Source: Verrucomicrobiota bacterium (GTDB lineage: Bacteria > Bacteroidota > Bacteroidia > Flavobacteriales_E > Vicingaceae). From it: 45,838 nucleotides of DNA. The notes beneath the pieces are model-generated. The model did not search any database, was not told the origin of the DNA, and saw only the letters and a list, made by a program, of their open reading frames with translations. The translations under genes and the position numbers were made by a program. Positions 8,084-17,042 of the stretch are shown here, in pieces (positions within the stretch are counted from its first letter, which is position 1; every line of letters begins with the position of its first letter). The DNA lies in contig PAVT01000041.1 of NCBI GenBank assembly GCA_002713165.1, positions 1 to 45,838 of the forward strand. The letters are read 5' to 3'.

Positions 8084-9433
8084 ATGATTAGAAGAATTTT
8101 ACTTACCCCATTTCAGAAATTTATTAAAACCGGAAGTACGGCAGGAATGCTGCTTTTTGCAACTACAGTTGTTGCATTGATATGGGCTAATTCGGAGTAT
8201 GCTTCTTACTACGAGTCGCTTTTACAATACAAGTTAGGATTTTCATTTGAAAATTTTGAACTCAAAAAGCCACTTACTTTATGGATTAACGATGGTTTAA
8301 TGGCCATCTTCTTTTTTCTCATTGGGTTAGAGTTGAAAAGAGAGTTACTTGTGGGAGAAATAAACACCCTAAAAAAAGCGATTTTCCCTTTATTTGCAGC
8401 CTTAGGTGGCATTTTTGTACCGATAGCTTTTTATCTTTTCTTGAATGACAATCCTGCTACGGCAAAAGGTTGGGGAATCCCTATGGCAACAGATATAGCA
8501 TTTGCCTTGGCTATATTGAGTATGTTAGGCAAACGAGTACCCTTGAGTCTCAAAGTATTTTTAACTGCATTCGCCATCATAGATGATATTGCTGCGGTAG
8601 TCGTTATCGCTGTTTTCTATAGCTCTAATGTAGATGTAGTACTACTATTGTCGGGAGTTGGAGTAATCGTTCTCTTGGCATTCGTTTACAAATACATTAA
8701 ATACAACCTAGAAATTGGGTTAGTTTTGGCTGTTGTTACATGGTTTCTTTTTCTAAAATCAGGTATACACCCAACAATAGCAGGCGTTCTATTGGCTTTT
8801 ACCATACCTTTAAGAAGAAACCTCAATATGAAAGAATTTGCTTACAACCTGAGTTCCATCTCCAATGAAATTGTAAAAAAATCTACCGATGATGTAGATG
8901 ATAATTCTGATAAACACATCCTAACATCAGAAGAAATTGAGTGTATTGATAATCTTGATGAATTATCATCAGAAGCGGTTGCTCCATTGCAACATCTTGA
9001 GCATAAACTTCATAATTTAACGGCTTATGTCATTTTACCAATTTTTGCCTTTGCCAACGCAGGAGTAGCCATAGGTGCAGGCTACGCCTACGATATGAAT
9101 CTCATTTTCAATATCGCTATCAGCTTGTTCTTAGGAAAACTAATCGGTGTTGTATTGTTCTCTTTCGTAGGTATCAAGTTGCGTTTAACCGAAATGCCAA
9201 ACGATCTAAATTTCAAACATATAATCGGCATTGCTGCCATTGCAGGAGTGGGCTTTACCATGTCTATATTTATTGACTACCTAGCTTTTGCAGGAAATGA
9301 ACGAAGCATTATTTCCGCTAAAATCGGAGTAATTGTTGGCTCGTTTCTATCGGGTATTATGGGTTACTTGATTCTTATGTTGGCTAGTAAGGATGAAACG
9401 AGTCCTAAACCACTTATAAGTAAGATTAAATAG
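8084..9433 (+). CDS. nhaA: Na+/H+ antiporter NhaA
   Basis: LWINDGLMAIFFFLIGLELKRELLVGEI; GWGIPMATDIAFALAIL; FLTAFAIIDDIAAVVVIAVFY. Confidence 0.95.
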   Translation: MIRRILLTPFQKFIKTGSTAGMLLFATTVVALIWANSEYASYYESLLQYKLGFSFENFELKKPLTLWINDGLMAIFFFLIGLELKRELLVGEINTLKKAIFPLFAALGGIFVPIAFYLFLNDNPATAKGWGIPMATDIAFALAILSMLGKRVPLSLKVFLTAFAIIDDIAAVVVIAVFYSSNVDVVLLLSGVGVIVLLAFVYKYIKYNLEIGLVLAVVTWFLFLKSGIHPTIAGVLLAFTIPLRRNLNMKEFAYNLSSISNEIVKKSTDDVDDNSDKHILTSEEIECIDNLDELSSEAVAPLQHLEHKLHNLTAYVILPIFAFANAGVAIGAGYAYDMNLIFNIAISLFLGKLIGVVLFSFVGIKLRLTEMPNDLNFKHIIGIAAIAGVGFTMSIFIDYLAFAGNERSIISAKIGVIVGSFLSGIMGYLILMLASKDETSPKPLISKIK

Positions 9434-9455
9434 TAGTGGATAATTGTATCCACTA
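9434..9455. promoter_or_regulatory. inverted-repeat operator, probable Rrf2 site 1
   Basis: TAGTGGATA-ATTG-TATCCACTA, perfect 9-nt arms; upstream of a TACATTTG -7 element (9469-9476); 18/22 identical to the copy at 9944-9965. Confidence 0.7.
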
Positions 9456-9493
9456 TTATTTAATTTCCTACATTTGCGATGTAAAATCAGAGT

Positions 9494-9928
9494 ATGTTTT
9501 CAAAAGCCTGTGAATATGGAATAAAGTCAGCAATTTATGTTGCTGAGCAATCTATTGACGGCAGACGAGTAAGCATCAAAGATGTAACCAAAGCCATAAA
9601 CTCGCCTGAAGCTTATACTTCGAAAATATTACAACAGCTCAAAAACAATGGACTGATTAATTCGGATAGAGGACCCGGAGGAGGTTTTTCAATTGACCCT
9701 AAAACCATGGAGAAAATGACACTTAGTGATATAGTAACCGCTTTTGATGGTGACAGTATTTACAGAGGATGTGGCTTGGGATTTAAAAAATGTAATGCTG
9801 CCAAACCTTGTCCCGTTCATCATGAGTTTGCTAAAATTCGGGATCAACTAGCAAAAATGTTAAGTGAAACAACGATTAAATCTCTTGCATTGCAATTGCA
9901 GGATGGTTTATCCTTTTTAAAGACATAA
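9494..9928 (+). CDS. Rrf2 family transcriptional regulator (putative Fe-S or NO sensor)
   Basis: MFSKACEYGIKSAIYVAEQS...GGGFSI winged helix; Cys cluster CGLGFKKCNAAKPCPVHHEF (C-x6-C-x5-C). Confidence 0.93.
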   Translation: MFSKACEYGIKSAIYVAEQSIDGRRVSIKDVTKAINSPEAYTSKILQQLKNNGLINSDRGPGGGFSIDPKTMEKMTLSDIVTAFDGDSIYRGCGLGFKKCNAAKPCPVHHEFAKIRDQLAKMLSETTIKSLALQLQDGLSFLKT

Positions 9929-9943
9929 AAAAATTTGAAATAA

Positions 9944-9965
9944 TAATGGACAAGTTTATCCACTA
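9944..9965. promoter_or_regulatory. inverted-repeat operator, probable Rrf2 site 2 (upstream of the ccoN-like gene)
   Basis: TAATGGACAAGTTTATCCACTA, same 22-nt length and 18/22 identity to 9434-9455; lies 10 nt before the ccoN-like ATG. Confidence 0.65.
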
Positions 9966-9975
9966 ATAAAACATA

Positions 9976-11721
9976 ATGGTAGTAAACAGCATTTTTAATG
10001 AATCGGGAATCCTAATCACAATCGCCTTAATTATGGTTCCTGTCTTGGTTGGGGCATTGCTCGCCTATTCAAAAGCAATTCAGGTATTAAAAGAACTTAA
10101 CACCAAGCATAAAATCAAAGAGTTTCAAAAGAGAATTGAATCCCTGAGCGAAGAAGAAATAAATGAATTAAAACAGAGACAGGAAGAGTTGGAGTTTCGT
10201 TTGGCAGACAATGAATTGTCAGGCAAACACCTTCCAAAAGATAAGCGAGGTTTAATCAACAAAATAGAGCAGATAGAAGAATTAAGGTTTATTGATAGAA
10301 AAAAGAAAAGTATCCCTAGGCCTTCTGTAGATCCACGACTTGCTAAACTCATTTTATGGTTTTTGGGAACCGCTACTTTTTGGCTGTTATTTGGTACTAC
10401 AGTTGGCGAGTACTTAGGTATCAAATTCGTTGTGCCCGATGCAGATCATTATTCTTGGTTGAGTTTTGGTAGGCTTCGTCCTGTACATACCAACGCTGTA
10501 TTTTGGGGGTGGTCATCTTTAGCAATGCTTGGACTAGCATATTATGTAGTACCAAGAGTAAGCAATGTCCCAATTTTTAGTGTCAAACAGGGATATTGGA
10601 CATTATTTTTAGTCAATATTACTGTGATTACCGGAAGCTTGTTCCTGATGACAGGTATTAACAATGGCGGTGGAGAATACCGAGAATATATATGGCCGGT
10701 TATGTTGTTGTTTGGTATTGCCATTATCATTACCCTAAACAACTTTCTGAAAACTATTGCAAGAAGAAAAACCAAAGAAATCTACGTTTCCAATTGGTAC
10801 ATTGTGGCAGCTTTAATGTTTGTAGTCGTTATTGCCATTGTTGCCTATTGGCCTACATGGCAAATCGGCTTAGGAGAAACCATCGTACAGGGTTATTATA
10901 TGCATCAGGGCGTTGGTATGTGGTTCATGCTTTTCACCCTCGGATTAATGTATTACTACCTGCCTCAGCAACTGAATAAACCCATTTACTCTTATAGCTT
11001 AGGAATACTAGCATTTTGGGCACAGATTATTTTCTACACTTTAATCGGAACCCATCATTTTATATTTAGTGCCATCCCTTGGTGGTTGCAAACAGTTGCC
11101 ATTGTCGGGAGTGCAGGAATGGTCATTCCCGTTATTGCAGGAACAACCAACTTTCTGATGACCTTCAAAGGTTCATGGCATAAAGTGTCAAACAGTTACA
11201 CCCTCCCCTTCTATCTGATTGGAATCATTTTTTACTTTACAGGATCGTTGCAAGGAACGGCTGAAGCTTTCAGGTACACCAATCTATTATGGCATTTTAC
11301 TGACTTTACTGTTGCTCACTCTCACCTGACCATGTATGGCATAATTGCATTTATGTTGTGGGCATTTATTTATACCATTGTTCCGAGATTAACAGGGAAA
11401 GAACCTCCTCAAAGTACGGTGGGTGCTCATTTTTGGTTAGCTCTGATCGGTTTGATGTTTTATACCGTTCCCTTAATGATCGGAGCTTCAATAAGGGGCT
11501 TAATGTGGATGGATGCCAAACCTTTTATAGATAGTGTGAGTATGATGGCTCCTTATTGGCTTTGGAGAGCCATCGGCGGAAGCTTAATGTGGCTGTCTCA
11601 CATCCTATTTGCCTATAATTTTTACAAGATGGTTTTTCAAAAAGAAGAAATAAAGATTCCCGATTCTCCTCAAGAGATATTGAGACTAAGAGAGCAACTT
11701 GAGAAACAACAAACTACATAA
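9976..11721 (+). CDS. ccoN: C-family (cbb3-like) heme-copper oxidase catalytic subunit with an N-terminal TM/coiled-coil extension
   Basis: FGRLRPVHTNAVFWGW, MHQGVGMWF (CuB His), FYTLIGTHHFIF (CuB HisHis with Tyr at -6), HFTDFTVAHSHLTMYG (heme His). Confidence 0.88.
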   Translation: MVVNSIFNESGILITIALIMVPVLVGALLAYSKAIQVLKELNTKHKIKEFQKRIESLSEEEINELKQRQEELEFRLADNELSGKHLPKDKRGLINKIEQIEELRFIDRKKKSIPRPSVDPRLAKLILWFLGTATFWLLFGTTVGEYLGIKFVVPDADHYSWLSFGRLRPVHTNAVFWGWSSLAMLGLAYYVVPRVSNVPIFSVKQGYWTLFLVNITVITGSLFLMTGINNGGGEYREYIWPVMLLFGIAIIITLNNFLKTIARRKTKEIYVSNWYIVAALMFVVVIAIVAYWPTWQIGLGETIVQGYYMHQGVGMWFMLFTLGLMYYYLPQQLNKPIYSYSLGILAFWAQIIFYTLIGTHHFIFSAIPWWLQTVAIVGSAGMVIPVIAGTTNFLMTFKGSWHKVSNSYTLPFYLIGIIFYFTGSLQGTAEAFRYTNLLWHFTDFTVAHSHLTMYGIIAFMLWAFIYTIVPRLTGKEPPQSTVGAHFWLALIGLMFYTVPLMIGASIRGLMWMDAKPFIDSVSMMAPYWLWRAIGGSLMWLSHILFAYNFYKMVFQKEEIKIPDSPQEILRLREQLEKQQTT

Positions 11722-11732
11722 CAGACACAGCA

Positions 11733-12737
11733 ATGGAATTTTTTAACAATCATAGAAAGCTATTTACCACCGCATTGTTCATGTTTGTGGCATTGACCAT
11801 AATAGTAGCTCTGAAACCTGCTATTAACAATCAGGAGAACAATTCACCTTTGCCCAATGCAGAGCCACTTAACAAAGTGGAAATGGCCGGAAAGAAAGTA
11901 TATATCTCAGAAGGCTGTGTCGCTTGCCATACCCAACAAGTAAGAAATGTTGAAATGGATGAGGTTTGGGGTAAACGACCCGGTATTGCGGCAGATTACG
12001 CCAACATTAGGCGAACAGATTTTTGGCGAAATACAGCGACCCTCATGGGAACAGAAAGAACCGGCCCCGACCTAACCAATGTAGGAAATCGTCAGCCTAG
12101 TTTAGCATGGAATCTGCTGCATTTGTATCAGCCAAGGGCGGTAGTAAAGGAATCCATTATGCCTGCCTATCCGTGGTTATTCGAGATAAAGGATTCCGTG
12201 GGTGTAGAAGATGTAGAGGTGATTGTGCCGGAAGAATATCGAAAGACCGATAAAGGAAAAGTGGTGGCTACTCAAAAGGTACTTGATTTAGTGGCCTATT
12301 TACAAAGCCTAAAACAAACTCCACTTACCAACGAAAGTGACAATCCTGAATTTCTTTACAAGAAAAAGAAAGAGCCTGAATTTCTAAAAGAGAAAGTCGG
12401 CTCATTAGATGGCAAAGCACTATACGCAAGTAACTGTCAGAGTTGTCATCAGGCAAACGGAGAGGGTTTAAAAGGAGCTTTTCCACCCTTAAAAGGGAGT
12501 TCAATTGTACTCGGTGATGACTTAGAGTTATTAGTTTCTATAATTATGCTTGGTTATGATGCCCGACCTGAATACGCAGTTATGAATGCCGTAGGTAAAG
12601 ACAATGGGCTTACGCCTGAAGAAATCACAGCCATCATTAACCATGAAAAAACAAGTTGGGGCAATGATGCACAGACTGTAAGTACAGAAGAAGTAAAAAA
12701 AATAGTTGAATTCATTGAATTGACCTCCGGAAAATAG
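11733..12737 (+). CDS. CcoO-like cytochrome c subunit fused to a second cytochrome c domain
   Basis: CcoO motifs CVACHTQQVRN, RTGPDLTNVGNR, LHLYQPRAVVKESIMPAYPWL; second heme site CQSCHQANGEG. Confidence 0.88.
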   Translation: MEFFNNHRKLFTTALFMFVALTIIVALKPAINNQENNSPLPNAEPLNKVEMAGKKVYISEGCVACHTQQVRNVEMDEVWGKRPGIAADYANIRRTDFWRNTATLMGTERTGPDLTNVGNRQPSLAWNLLHLYQPRAVVKESIMPAYPWLFEIKDSVGVEDVEVIVPEEYRKTDKGKVVATQKVLDLVAYLQSLKQTPLTNESDNPEFLYKKKKEPEFLKEKVGSLDGKALYASNCQSCHQANGEGLKGAFPPLKGSSIVLGDDLELLVSIIMLGYDARPEYAVMNAVGKDNGLTPEEITAIINHEKTSWGNDAQTVSTEEVKKIVEFIELTSGK

Positions 12738-13421: not shown

Positions 13422-13757
13422 ATGGAAGCAATAATCTCAAAAACAGTACAAATGGAAACGACGTCAACGCAAGCTGCTCAGCTTAATTGGTTTAACAGAC
13501 AGGTAGCCAATTTTGAAGAATCAAGATTTGGTGTTATGGCAATGATGCTAGCGGTTCAAACCTGTTGGGGTTCCATAGCGGCAGGATTAAGTTATAGTAA
13601 CGAAACCATCTTGGGTCTAGCCCTTTGTGGGACTTTTACCATGCTCAATAACACCGTATTGATTGCACAAGGCCCTGCGAAATGGTGTGTAGGTATATTT
13701 TCGGCGGCTATAATTGTAAACACCATTATTATTCTAATAGAATTAATCGGAGGATAA
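13422..13757 (+). CDS. small multi-TM membrane protein
   Basis: 111 aa with about three hydrophobic segments; stop overlaps the next ATG. Confidence 0.6.
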   Translation: MEAIISKTVQMETTSTQAAQLNWFNRQVANFEESRFGVMAMMLAVQTCWGSIAAGLSYSNETILGLALCGTFTMLNNTVLIAQGPAKWCVGIFSAAIIVNTIIILIELIGG

Positions 13758-14149
13758 TGAAAAGAAAGGAAATCATCAGTTTGGAGGAAGTAAAAACATT
13801 GGTAGATGAATTTTACACCAAAGTGAGAAGTGATGAATTGCTAAAAAATATTTTCAATGAGCGAATTCAGAGTCGATGGTCGGAGCATTTGGAAAATATG
13901 TACCGCTTTTGGCAAACTGTTTTATTAGATGAGCACACATATAGCGGAAGTCCATTTCTGCCACATGCCAATATGCCTGTGAAGCTTATTCATTTTGAAC
14001 GTTGGCAAGAGCTATTCAATAAAACTGTGGACGAGAACTTTATTGGAGATAAAGCCATGGAAGCAAAAAGACGTGCTAAAATGATGGCTACCATGTTTCA
14101 TCATAAAATTGAATATTATAAAAACAATACAGCAACACCACTTAAATGA
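13757..14149 (+). CDS. group III truncated haemoglobin
   Basis: ATG at 13757 (TAATG overlap); FYTKVRSDELLKNIFNERI, HLENMYRFWQTVLL, PHANMPVKLIHFERWQELF typical of group III trHb. Confidence 0.88.
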   Translation: MKRKEIISLEEVKTLVDEFYTKVRSDELLKNIFNERIQSRWSEHLENMYRFWQTVLLDEHTYSGSPFLPHANMPVKLIHFERWQELFNKTVDENFIGDKAMEAKRRAKMMATMFHHKIEYYKNNTATPLK

Positions 14150-14598
14150 GCATTGTTAAATATCCTATTAGTGTAATTGCCACTTTTTTGTGGGTTGGTT
14201 TTATATGTGCCATTAGTTTTATGGAGGCTTGGCTAAAATTCAGAGCCGATGGCATTACCTTGTCTTTAGGTTTAGGAATTGGTCGATTGGTATTTAGTGC
14301 TTTAAACAAGGTTGAATGGGTATTAGCCATAGCAATTCTGCTTAATCAGTTTTTTGACCTAAAATCAATCTCTGTAAAGAAGTTAATCCCCTTTTTTATA
14401 CCATTTGTGCTTTTAATAACTCAAACTTTTTGGCTTTTACCTGCTTTAGATTATAGGGCAGAATTAATCATTCAAGGGCAGATCTTACCTCCTTCAAATC
14501 TACATTTCTATTATGTAGGTATGGAAGTAGTTAAAGTGATTAGCCTATTCCTGTTCGGAATATCATTATTTACCTTAAAAACGAAAAATGAAGGATAA
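14146..14598 (+). CDS. 4-TM membrane protein of unknown function
   Basis: 150 aa, four hydrophobic segments; overlaps both neighbouring genes. Confidence 0.65.
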   Translation: MSIVKYPISVIATFLWVGFICAISFMEAWLKFRADGITLSLGLGIGRLVFSALNKVEWVLAIAILLNQFFDLKSISVKKLIPFFIPFVLLITQTFWLLPALDYRAELIIQGQILPPSNLHFYYVGMEVVKVISLFLFGISLFTLKTKNEG

Positions 14599-15499
14599 AC
14601 TTTTGCAAGAAATTAAGAATAAGTACAGGGATTTGGGAGAAAACTCCGAAACCTATTTGAAAGGATTATTACACGCTAAACCCATCAATTATTGGGATTA
14701 TGTAGAAGTTGAAACCTTGCTTTCGCTTCAAAAACCAAGAACCAATTTTAAGGATGAAGAAATCTTCATCATGTATCATCAGGTAACTGAATTGGTTTTA
14801 AAGATGATCGTACACGAATTGAAACAACTTGTTTTTGAACAATTTAATGAACAGATATGGCTCGATAAACTCAATCGAATTATTCGTTATACTGATATGC
14901 TGATTACTTCTTTTGATGTAATGAAATCGGGAATGAGTTATGATGACTACAATACCTTTAGAAGTACGCTGACACCTGCAAGTGGATTCCAAAGTGCTCA
15001 ATTCCGACAAATTGAATTGTACTGTACTCGTGTAGAAAATTTATTAAATGAGGAAGGAAGAAAAAGAATCGGAGAGAATCCTTCAGTTCAGGATTACTTT
15101 GAACACATTTATTGGAAAGATGCAGGCTTAAACAGAAAGACAGGAAAGAAGTCTTTGACCTTAAGCCAATTTGAGGAGAAGTATTTGAATCAGTTTATTG
15201 CTTTGGCAGAGCAAGTGAAAGGAGAAACCTTAGAAGAAAAGGTTCTAAAAGCGAACTGCTCTAATGAATTGAAAGAGAAATTGAGAGCCTTCGATGACTT
15301 CTACAATGTAAAATGGCCAATGGTTCATTTAGAAACAGCCCAACATTACTTAGATAAGAAAGGAGAAAATAAAGCAGCTACGGGAGGCAGTGAATGGAAG
15401 AAATATCTACATCCGAAATTTCAACAGCGTAAATTCTTCCCAACCTTATGGGATAAAGAAGAGTTGGAAATTTGGGGTGAAAAATCAAACGAAAAATAA
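14588..15499 (+). CDS. tryptophan 2,3-dioxygenase family heme protein
   Basis: FIMYHQVTELVLKMIVHEL, FRSTLTPASGFQSAQFRQIE, HLETAQHYL...ATGGSEWKKYL correspond to TDO motifs. Confidence 0.88.
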   Translation: MKDKLLQEIKNKYRDLGENSETYLKGLLHAKPINYWDYVEVETLLSLQKPRTNFKDEEIFIMYHQVTELVLKMIVHELKQLVFEQFNEQIWLDKLNRIIRYTDMLITSFDVMKSGMSYDDYNTFRSTLTPASGFQSAQFRQIELYCTRVENLLNEEGRKRIGENPSVQDYFEHIYWKDAGLNRKTGKKSLTLSQFEEKYLNQFIALAEQVKGETLEEKVLKANCSNELKEKLRAFDDFYNVKWPMVHLETAQHYLDKKGENKAATGGSEWKKYLHPKFQQRKFFPTLWDKEELEIWGEKSNEK

Positions 15500-15515: not shown

Positions 15516-16244
15516 ATGAATATTACAGAAAATGACATTGTAGGAGAATTGGTGGCGAAAGATTATAGAACAGCATCTGTTTTTAAGTCAGAAGGCATTG
15601 ACTTTTGTTGTCGAGGGAATCGTAGCATTCAGGAGGTTTCTAAACACAACAACATTGAAACGGAAACCCTGATTGAAAAATTAAATGCAGCTATAACCGG
15701 AACAAGTGGAACTACGGATTATGATTCATGGCCAATTGATCTTTTAGCGGACTATATTGAAAAAAAACACCACCGCTATGTAGAAGAAAAAATTGCTGAA
15801 ATAAAACCTTATCTGAGTAAGGTAGTGAGTGTGCATGGAAAGCAGCATCCGGAATTAGAAGAAATACAAGTGCTATTCAATGGAGCGGCAGGCGAATTGG
15901 CGATGCACATGAAAAAGGAAGAATTGGTATTGTTTCCATTCATCCGTAAAATGGTAAAATCAAAACAAAGCAATGAGTCGATAGAGGTACCTCATTTTGG
16001 AACAGTTGACAATCCTATAGCCATGATGAAAGAAGAGCATGACAAGGAAGGCATTCGATTCAGGAAGATTGCCGAATTAAGTTCCAATTATACGACACCT
16101 ACTGATGCTTGCAATACTTACAAAGTAACTTATGCACTGCTAAAGGAGTTTGAAGCAGACTTACATTTGCACATTCACTTAGAAAATAACATCTTGTTTC
16201 CAAAAGCTTTAAAAATGGAACAGGATTTACTTCATACAACGTAG
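15516..16244 (+). CDS. ric: iron-sulfur cluster repair di-iron protein (RIC/ScdA/YtfE)
   Basis: N-terminal DUF542 FKSEGIDFCCRGNRSIQEV; hemerythrin-like H/E motifs (HHRYVEEK, MKKEELVLFPFI, EEHDKEG, HIHLENNILFPKA). Confidence 0.93.
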   Translation: MNITENDIVGELVAKDYRTASVFKSEGIDFCCRGNRSIQEVSKHNNIETETLIEKLNAAITGTSGTTDYDSWPIDLLADYIEKKHHRYVEEKIAEIKPYLSKVVSVHGKQHPELEEIQVLFNGAAGELAMHMKKEELVLFPFIRKMVKSKQSNESIEVPHFGTVDNPIAMMKEEHDKEGIRFRKIAELSSNYTTPTDACNTYKVTYALLKEFEADLHLHIHLENNILFPKALKMEQDLLHTT

Positions 16245-16588
16245 TGATTGAAGAAAATAGATTGAGAGAAACATACAAAGTGCAGGTGATTGATTTTTTA
16301 GGTGAATCAAACACATTAACATTTCGAAGCCATCAATACCGAAACCTTATGGAAATGATTGTAGATCAGTTAAGCGAAGATATTGGCGACTGTATGGGCA
16401 GGGCTTGGTGTGGCACATGCCACGTTGAATTGGTGCAAGGAAACTTAGTAGATGATAAGGATAGCAAAGAAGATCATAAACTAAAAGAGTTATACAATCA
16501 TAGCCAAGCTAGCAGGCTTTCCTGTCAAATTATGGTGAACAAAGAATTAGATGGCTTAACCTTCAAACTATTGTCAGAATATGTCTAA
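16244..16588 (+). CDS. [2Fe-2S] ferredoxin-like protein
   Basis: GTG start overlapping the RIC stop; CMGRAWCGTC (C-x5-C-x2-C) plus RLSCQIMV gives the ISC-ferredoxin Cys pattern. Confidence 0.75.
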   Translation: MIEENRLRETYKVQVIDFLGESNTLTFRSHQYRNLMEMIVDQLSEDIGDCMGRAWCGTCHVELVQGNLVDDKDSKEDHKLKELYNHSQASRLSCQIMVNKELDGLTFKLLSEYV

Positions 16589-17042
16589 GCCCTTAAAAAG
16601 ACATCTGTTATTACAGGATTTAAGCCGGGATCATCATCATGGTTTATTGCTATGTTGGAAAATCAGAACAGGCTTCAAAAAAGAAATTGCTCCAAAACGC
16701 ATGATGAAGTATGCTCAATGGTTTTGGAAGAATCATTTAAAAGTCCACTTTAAAATTGAAGAGGAAACTGTTTTCCCTATTCTTGGAAAAGAGCACGATT
16801 TGATTAAAAAAGCATTGAGTGAACACCGGAAAATTAAACGCTTAATGGAAGGAACTGATAACATAGAAGTCCGATTAAATAGCATTGAAGAGCAATTAGA
16901 GCAGCACATTCGTTTTGAAGAAAGAATATTGTTTCAGGAAGTTCAGTCTATAGCAACAGAAACTGAGCTAAAGCACGTAAAAGAAGCTCATTCTGAAGAA
17001 AACTTTGTTGATAACCTAAATGATCCCTTTTGGGAAAAATAA
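16581..17042 (+). CDS. hemerythrin domain protein
   Basis: LSRDHHHGLLLCWKIR, HFKIEEETVFPIL, EHRKIKRLM, HIRFEERILF. Confidence 0.88.
   Translation: MSKPLKRHLLLQDLSRDHHHGLLLCWKIRTGFKKEIAPKRMMKYAQWFWKNHLKVHFKIEEETVFPILGKEHDLIKKALSEHRKIKRLMEGTDNIEVRLNSIEEQLEQHIRFEERILFQEVQSIATETELKHVKEAHSEENFVDNLNDPFWEK

Follow-up and report, generated by a model that had tools for sequence, protein, structure and literature searches.

Palindromic sites flanking an Rrf2-family regulator gene are probable operators of an NsrR-like repressor in Bacteroidota

Results

Two palindromes flank a regulator gene at the head of a gene cluster

The window (the whole 45,838-nt stretch of DNA analyzed) carries a gene for an Rrf2-family regulator, followed on the same strand by all the genes from one for a CcoN-like oxidase subunit to one for a hemerythrin-domain protein (Table 1). 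An earlier note on this DNA had described a duplicated 22-nt palindrome on either side of the regulator gene. Both copies, here called sites A and B, are present where it placed them, site A with the pattern TAGTGGATA-N4-TATCCACTA. A direct count agreed that 18 of the 22 positions of site B match site A and that the arms of site A are perfect over 9 nt. Site A begins immediately past the stop codon of an nhaA-like gene (9431-9433) and is therefore intergenic, and 10 nt separate site B from the ccoN-like start codon.

Table 1. Features of the regulator locus in the window
Feature	Position	Strand	Basis
Site A, probable operator TAGTGGATA-ATTG-TATCCACTA ahead of the Rrf2 gene	9434..9455	.	Sequence, shuffles, conservation
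Putative TAnnTTTG (-7-type) promoter element TACATTTG	9469..9476	+	Sequence, conserved spacing
Rrf2-family regulator, 144 aa	9494..9928	+	PF02082 / TIGR00738, alignment, model
Site B, probable operator TAATGGACA-AGTT-TATCCACTA past the Rrf2 stop	9944..9965	.	Sequence, shuffles, conservation
CcoN-like heme-copper oxidase subunit I, 581 aa, oxidase Tyr-x5-His-His	9976..11721	+	
FixO/CcoO-cytochrome c fusion	11733..12737	+	Profile searches
Bacterial (truncated-type) globin	13754..14149	+	PF01152
Tryptophan-2,3-dioxygenase-like (TDO-like) protein	14588..15499	+	PF03301 over residues 33-177
RIC / ScdA / YtfE-type di-iron Fe-S repair protein	15516..16244	+	TIGR03652, 232.4 bits, cut-off 204.7
2Fe-2S ferredoxin-like protein	16244..16588	+	PF00111
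Hemerythrin-domain protein	16581..17042	+	PF01814

When TAGTGGATANNNNTATCCACTA was searched for at up to 3 mismatches, the only matches in the window were site A (0 mismatches) and site B (2 mismatches), and 100 shuffles of the window gave none. By itself, the 14-base core is not a rare sequence here, with 6 places in the window at up to 1 mismatch vs 3.2 expected. A third exact core, GGACAAATTTGTCC at 1263-1276, falls within the reading frame 1111-1530, and we took it as chance. The genome scan that the note had proposed as a check returned one extra match, a weak one with 3 mismatches, from an assembly of 1.77 Mb that is 66.7% complete.

Two COX1 proteins were found in the genome of the window. 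Since the second is encoded by a frame of 716 aa, as long as a fused CcoNO, we took the CcoN-like protein of the window to be accessory. We considered and rejected the idea that it is an NO reductase. All 18 such proteins (17 at Rrf2 loci, the window's included, plus that of L271) keep the oxidase Tyr-x5-His-His, and none has an acidic residue four positions past the helix-VI His, which we take to be a contrast to NO reductases. Reduction of O2 would thus be the default reading. A search of this genome, at its 66.7% completeness, gave no quinol NO reductase domain; cbb3 enzymes are described as able to reduce NO too (PMC8780969).

The CcoN-like proteins of the window and of L271 (915-2720) have a long N-terminal part and the motif AHSHLTMYG, with the oxidase Tyr kept, at the place where the canonical CcoN of the same genome has AHVHVGALG, and the family may form a separate branch of the C-family oxidases. 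The TDO-like protein is covered by its Pfam match in its N-terminal part only. It recurs in NO-type operons (15 of 80 loci among the best 80 of 544 relatives), a copy in L265 (1672-2583) is preceded by an operator-like site, and it is perhaps a heme protein used against NO. Finally, small proteins encoded at 13422-13757 and 14146-14598, which have no Pfam match, recur beside globin and RIC genes (at 9 and 16 of the 80 loci from the same best 80 of 544 relatives); we read them as probable NO-linked families.

The regulator has the cluster residues of NsrR and a histidine of IscR

The regulator scored 87 bits against PF02082 (cut-off 30) and 86.5 bits against TIGR00738 (cut-off 73.3), which places it in the Rrf2 family. 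The C-x6-C-x5-C cluster noticed earlier is C93-x6-C100-x5-C106. These cysteines, together with C6, E7, and H109, are invariant across 81 rows of an alignment of the window's protein with the best 80 of 544 relatives. In a larger set (see below), C93, C100, and C106 are present in 171 of 171 rows, and they align with C91, C96, and C102 of E. coli NsrR. In S. coelicolor NsrR, the fourth cluster ligand is reported to be Asp8 of the other subunit, paired with Arg12 (PMC5411485). E7 corresponds in the alignment to Asp8 of E. coli NsrR, making it the candidate acidic fourth-ligand position, and is E in 105, K in 3, and N in 1 of the 109 rows that carry an upstream site. Position 11, aligned with Arg12 of NsrR, is K or R in 107 of those 109. 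The same protein carries H109, which aligns with His107, the fourth ligand in IscR, so an IscR-like [2Fe-2S] center is possible.

Neither curated model claimed the protein: it scored 37.8 bits against the NCBIfam NsrR equivalog (cut-off 182) and 52.5 bits against the IscR equivalog (cut-off 207.55). Because both fail by far, we regard the regulator as probably NsrR-like in its work, not as a member of NsrR. An AlphaFold model (pLDDT 84.5) showed a normal Rrf2 winged-helix fold, with the recognition helix at approximately residues 39-51 carrying Y41 and S43. VIA-align placed the model closest to CymR (Z 16.3; 2.1 Å over 126 residues), followed by IscR (14.6), RsrR (14.0), and NsrR (13.8), with no wide margins among the four. 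With the lone protein as query, phmmer hit no solved structure at 1e-6.

Other comparisons would fit a different signal. A sequence profile found RsrR, CymR, and IscR as the nearest solved structures, with NsrR only at E 0.0043, and Foldseek ranked RsrR first. Along with the match of H109 to IscR His107, they would fit a reading in which the sites are the regulator's operators but the protein senses general redox or Fe-S status, as with RsrR and IscR, rather than NO; NO-type genes would then be induced as one part of a broader response to Fe-S damage. The genes that follow the unlinked sites, given below, speak against this reading.

The sites are conserved at regulator loci as a dyad with variable outer arms

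We looked for the operator core at the loci of the best 80 of 544 confirmed homologues, taken from one contig scan, whose titles name Bacteroidota groups except for one that says "bacterium." Leaving out L032, which was too short, gave upstream regions for 79 relatives, and the window made 80. The core GGAYA-N4-TRTCC, at up to 1 mismatch, was present within 120 nt before the start codon in 76 of these 80, compared with 0.56 expected from shuffles, and past the regulator stop in 54 of 81 loci (these 80 relatives and the window), compared with 0.5 expected. Placement was nearly constant, at about -60 for site A and about +15 for site B.

The set was enlarged in two ways. A draw of 395 genomes across the phylum contributed 69 homologues, and further draws within the order (46 genomes) and the class (395 genomes) contributed 32 loci. 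The resulting 182 proteins, less 10 duplicates and 1 with a short upstream region, made 171 rows, 109 of them with a site. The earlier note had named absence of the sites from orthologous Rrf2 loci as a finding that would refute it. This was not borne out: of the 133 homologues with ≥45% identity, 105 have the site before the gene, against 4 of 38 below that level. Many of the 28 near homologues that lack the core keep a dyad with a looser one, e.g., TTAAAGATA-N4-TGTCTTTTA. The outer arms vary by clade yet remain dyad-symmetric. The dyad site that the note had described therefore stands, but the T beside GG in its motif is specific to a clade, and the general motif is GGAYA-N4-TRTCC with clade-specific arms. 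Some lineages lack any site B. In L026, L028, L030, L034, L038, and L047, the symmetric site B gives way to a recurring lopsided form, e.g., TAAAGGATATAAAGGTCTTAAT.

The link to a ccoN operon calls for refinement. Among the best 80 of 544 relatives, a ccoN-like gene lies at 16 of 80 loci, and the most constant partner is instead RIC, at 63 of 80; hemerythrin genes are at 38 and globin genes at 35. Owing to contig ends, all four counts are lower bounds.

The sites behave as DNA elements next to a putative promoter

As the note had said, a promoter element follows site A closely. In the window, TACATTTG lies 13 nt downstream, and TAnnTTTG starts 10 to 16 nt past site A in 97 of the 109 site-bearing rows. 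We take TAnnTTTG to be the Bacteroidota -7 promoter element. A -33 region would fall within site A, which fits repression. Across the relatives, an A-tract with TTT(G), which may be a promoter, usually lies ahead of site B; no clear TAnnTTTG lies ahead of site B in the window.

Site A folds well as RNA (-14.5 kcal/mol, z -5.4), and a terminator-like match was called there, though on the minus strand. Site A might thus be the terminator hairpin of the upstream nhaA-like gene, with site B a decayed copy. Yet site B folds poorly (z -0.38), the placement of the sites tracks the Rrf2 gene despite differing neighbors, and the same sites recur ahead of unlinked genes. At outer pair 4 of the site (T-A 28, C-G 26, A-T 22 of 109), both sides change together. 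At the variable Y/R pair of the core, RNA-compatible T-G and RNA-breaking C-A are near equal with both sites pooled (51 vs 44), being 45 vs 24 at site A and 6 vs 20 at site B. Because RNA pairing is not favored while the dyad is kept, we read the sites as DNA operators; on the core balance and on site B, we dropped the hairpin, which we regard as hardly credible.

Unlinked sites lie ahead of NO-type genes

Pattern scans of 25, 15, and 26 genomes found 38, 22, and 56 sites, respectively (116 in 66 genomes), whereas the reversed pattern gave 1, 0, and 8 matches (9 vs 116). Of the 116 sites, 72 were site A or site B, and we inspected all of the other 44. NO-type genes lay behind 17 of them, or behind 13 if only RIC/ScdA_N, quinol NO reductase, and nosZ clusters are counted. 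Globin, TDO-like, and CcoN-like genes had been classed as NO type partly for recurring at the regulator locus. RIC or ScdA_N followed the site in L123, L127, L131, L135, L270, L272, and L273, and two sites in L129 preceded gene runs that start with a cupredoxin or cupin gene and lead to RIC (RIC was identified by its sequence alone in L129 and L135, without a Pfam scan). Quinol NO reductase followed in L126 and L266 and, as the third gene, in L125; cytochrome c and then nosZ followed in L267, globin in L268 and L269, a TDO-like gene in L265, and a CcoN-like gene in L271. Among the 17 is a perfect palindrome 52 nt ahead of RIC in a genome of the window's family.

The other 27 of the 44 sites fell within reading frames (such as those of L124, L128, L133, L134, L274, and L276) or ahead of unrelated genes (such as those of L130, L132, L275, L277, and L278). 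The 26-genome scan used a looser pattern, and 9 of its 30 unlinked sites were NO type and 21 were not, many of the latter within reading frames; 14 of these 30 had been chosen by eye first and the remaining 16 gave zero NO-type cases, so that 9 of 30 is the fair count. Five of these 16 (L286, L288, L290, L291, and L293) are in Muricauda-like genomes, where a recurring palindrome (e.g., AATCGGATATAGCTATCCTGTA) lies 87 to 94 nt ahead of a conserved pump gene, presumably of the RND type; it probably belongs to another regulator.

The redox/NO regulon suggested by the note gains support from the genes behind the unlinked sites, and their positions favor NO over general redox status. RIC, quinol NO reductase, a nosZ cluster, and globin are all fronted by such sites; no isc or suf gene was recognized when the unlinked targets were looked through. 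We therefore consider general redox or Fe-S status an unlikely signal.

Residue 43 covaries with the operator base beside GG

Residue 43 of the regulator aligns with Glu43 of IscR and Val43 of NsrR. Glu43 of IscR is reported to contact bases 7 and 8, with E43A altering site choice (PMC5411485; PMC9338935), and affinity in Salmonella NsrR is reported to be set by Val43 (PMC10783083). Among the 109 site-bearing rows, those with Ser43 had T beside GG in 60 of 64 half-sites, and those with Ala43 had C in 76, A in 70, G in 5, and T in 3 of 154. The base in question is the eighth from the center. Our first grouping by residue 43 covered 73 of 80 rows and left out 7 with mixed arms; a count of all 109 gave 7 rows that are exceptions to the pairing. 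Sites B of L033, L035, and L071 are half-and-half. Cultivable relatives with the T-type site include Flavobacterium aquicola and F. taihuense. L186 combines Y41 with A43 and has no T beside GG, which points to residue 43 over residue 41 as the specificity position.

Within the family of the window, the arms carry T in three genomes whose regulator has Ser43, and C or A in the seven with Ala43, of which two have a poor core. Because the arms follow the type of regulator, host lineage is not the cause. A tree built without the helix columns required 2 to 3 changes, and only 1 independent pair lies on well-supported branches (sign test p = 1). As this amounts to only about one origin, the tree does not support an independently repeated switch at residue 43, and the link between residue and base is suggestive, not proved.

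Operators can belong to regulators encoded elsewhere, so some other DNA-binding protein might use the sites, with the Rrf2 gene merely one of its targets. This is very improbable, given that the site travels with the regulator and is rare with distant homologues and that the base beside GG tracks a residue of the recognition helix.

Discussion

Sites A and B are very probably binding sites of the adjacent regulator, and sites of this type lie, in many Bacteroidota, ahead of genes for removing NO or mending the damage it does. The sites themselves, their fixed places, the promoter spacing, the dyad in the DNA, the genes behind unlinked copies, and the cluster residues can all be read in the sequences. 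We consider it likely that the two sites serve as a pair of operators for an Fe-S Rrf2 repressor, NsrR-like in action but with a motif of its own. A cluster-bearing dimer would bind site A over its own promoter, causing autorepression, and site B ahead of the downstream operon of CcoN-like oxidase, globin, RIC, and hemerythrin. Attack of NO on the Fe-S cluster would make the regulator release the DNA, and the detoxification and repair genes would then be expressed. That the protein binds the sites, that it represses instead of activating, and that it responds to NO is what we infer from these data. Against this reading, both the curated NsrR score and the known NsrR motif failed, and the regulator's own genome, at 66.7% completeness, has no further good site. 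The match of H109 to IscR His107, the 27 of 44 unlinked sites away from NO-type genes, and the short 10-nt gap after site B together with the lack of a clear TAnnTTTG before it also count against it.

Like NsrR of E. coli, Salmonella, and Streptomyces coelicolor, the regulator has an Rrf2 fold, three cysteines, and an acidic residue at the Asp8 position. NsrR proteins control few genes, their own included, and these regulons contain RIC and NO reductase genes (PMC1274295, PMC9268430, PMC5411485), and the regulon predicted here from gene positions would be of the same kind. The regulator is, however, only 24% identical to E. coli NsrR and carries the IscR histidine as well. The published NsrR motif, gATGyAT-N5-ATrCATc (PMC1274295), is odd-centered (N5), whereas GGAYA-N4-TRTCC is even-centered, and ATGYAT-N5-ATRCAT at up to 1 mismatch had 0 matches in the window. 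RsrR of Streptomyces venezuelae, the best profile and Foldseek match among solved structures, is about 24% identical. IscR shares the three cysteines, the His107 equivalent, and residue 43 in the recognition helix, but it is 23% identical, has Arg at the position of E7, and differs in that isc genes are absent from those named at the regulator locus. In Vibrio fischeri, NsrR reportedly controls an alternative oxidase, a precedent for an NsrR-type repressor over a terminal oxidase, which here is a cbb3-type heme-copper enzyme. A nitrogen-oxide regulator of the CRP/FNR type, HcpR of Bacteroides, has also been predicted in this phylum (PMC1274295); it is unrelated to the present regulator in protein family and motif.

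More tentatively, with odds that we put a little short of even, these proteins may form a subfamily of NO-sensing Rrf2 repressors of Bacteroidota's own, using the even-centered GGAYA-N4-TRTCC to govern RIC, quinol NO reductase, nosZ, globin, and an accessory cbb3-like oxidase. Their specificity would have been retuned by a change of residue 43 (between Ala and Ser, with F41 or Y41) and a joint change, at every one of the few operators of each, in the base pair next to GG/CC; half-and-half loci may be relics of the switch. We found no NsrR-type regulon of Bacteroidota in the literature searched, which left most subscription papers and the regulon databases outside. A metagenome paper places Rrf2 genes near clade II nosZ (PMC6264515), which fits nosZ behind an operator site.

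The operator sequence could be used to read probable NO regulation across Bacteroidota, with an accessory cbb3-like oxidase as one probable target of NO control. Tiny regulons and a paired change of residue 43 and base pair would make a clean natural test of how repressor and operator change together, at a position already known for specificity or affinity in IscR and NsrR.

At E ≤ 1e-40, the regulator occurs in only 10 of 45 other genomes of the window's family, with 48 to 80% identity and with both types of operator. This patchy spread, with both operator types in one family, suggests horizontal transfer of the module.
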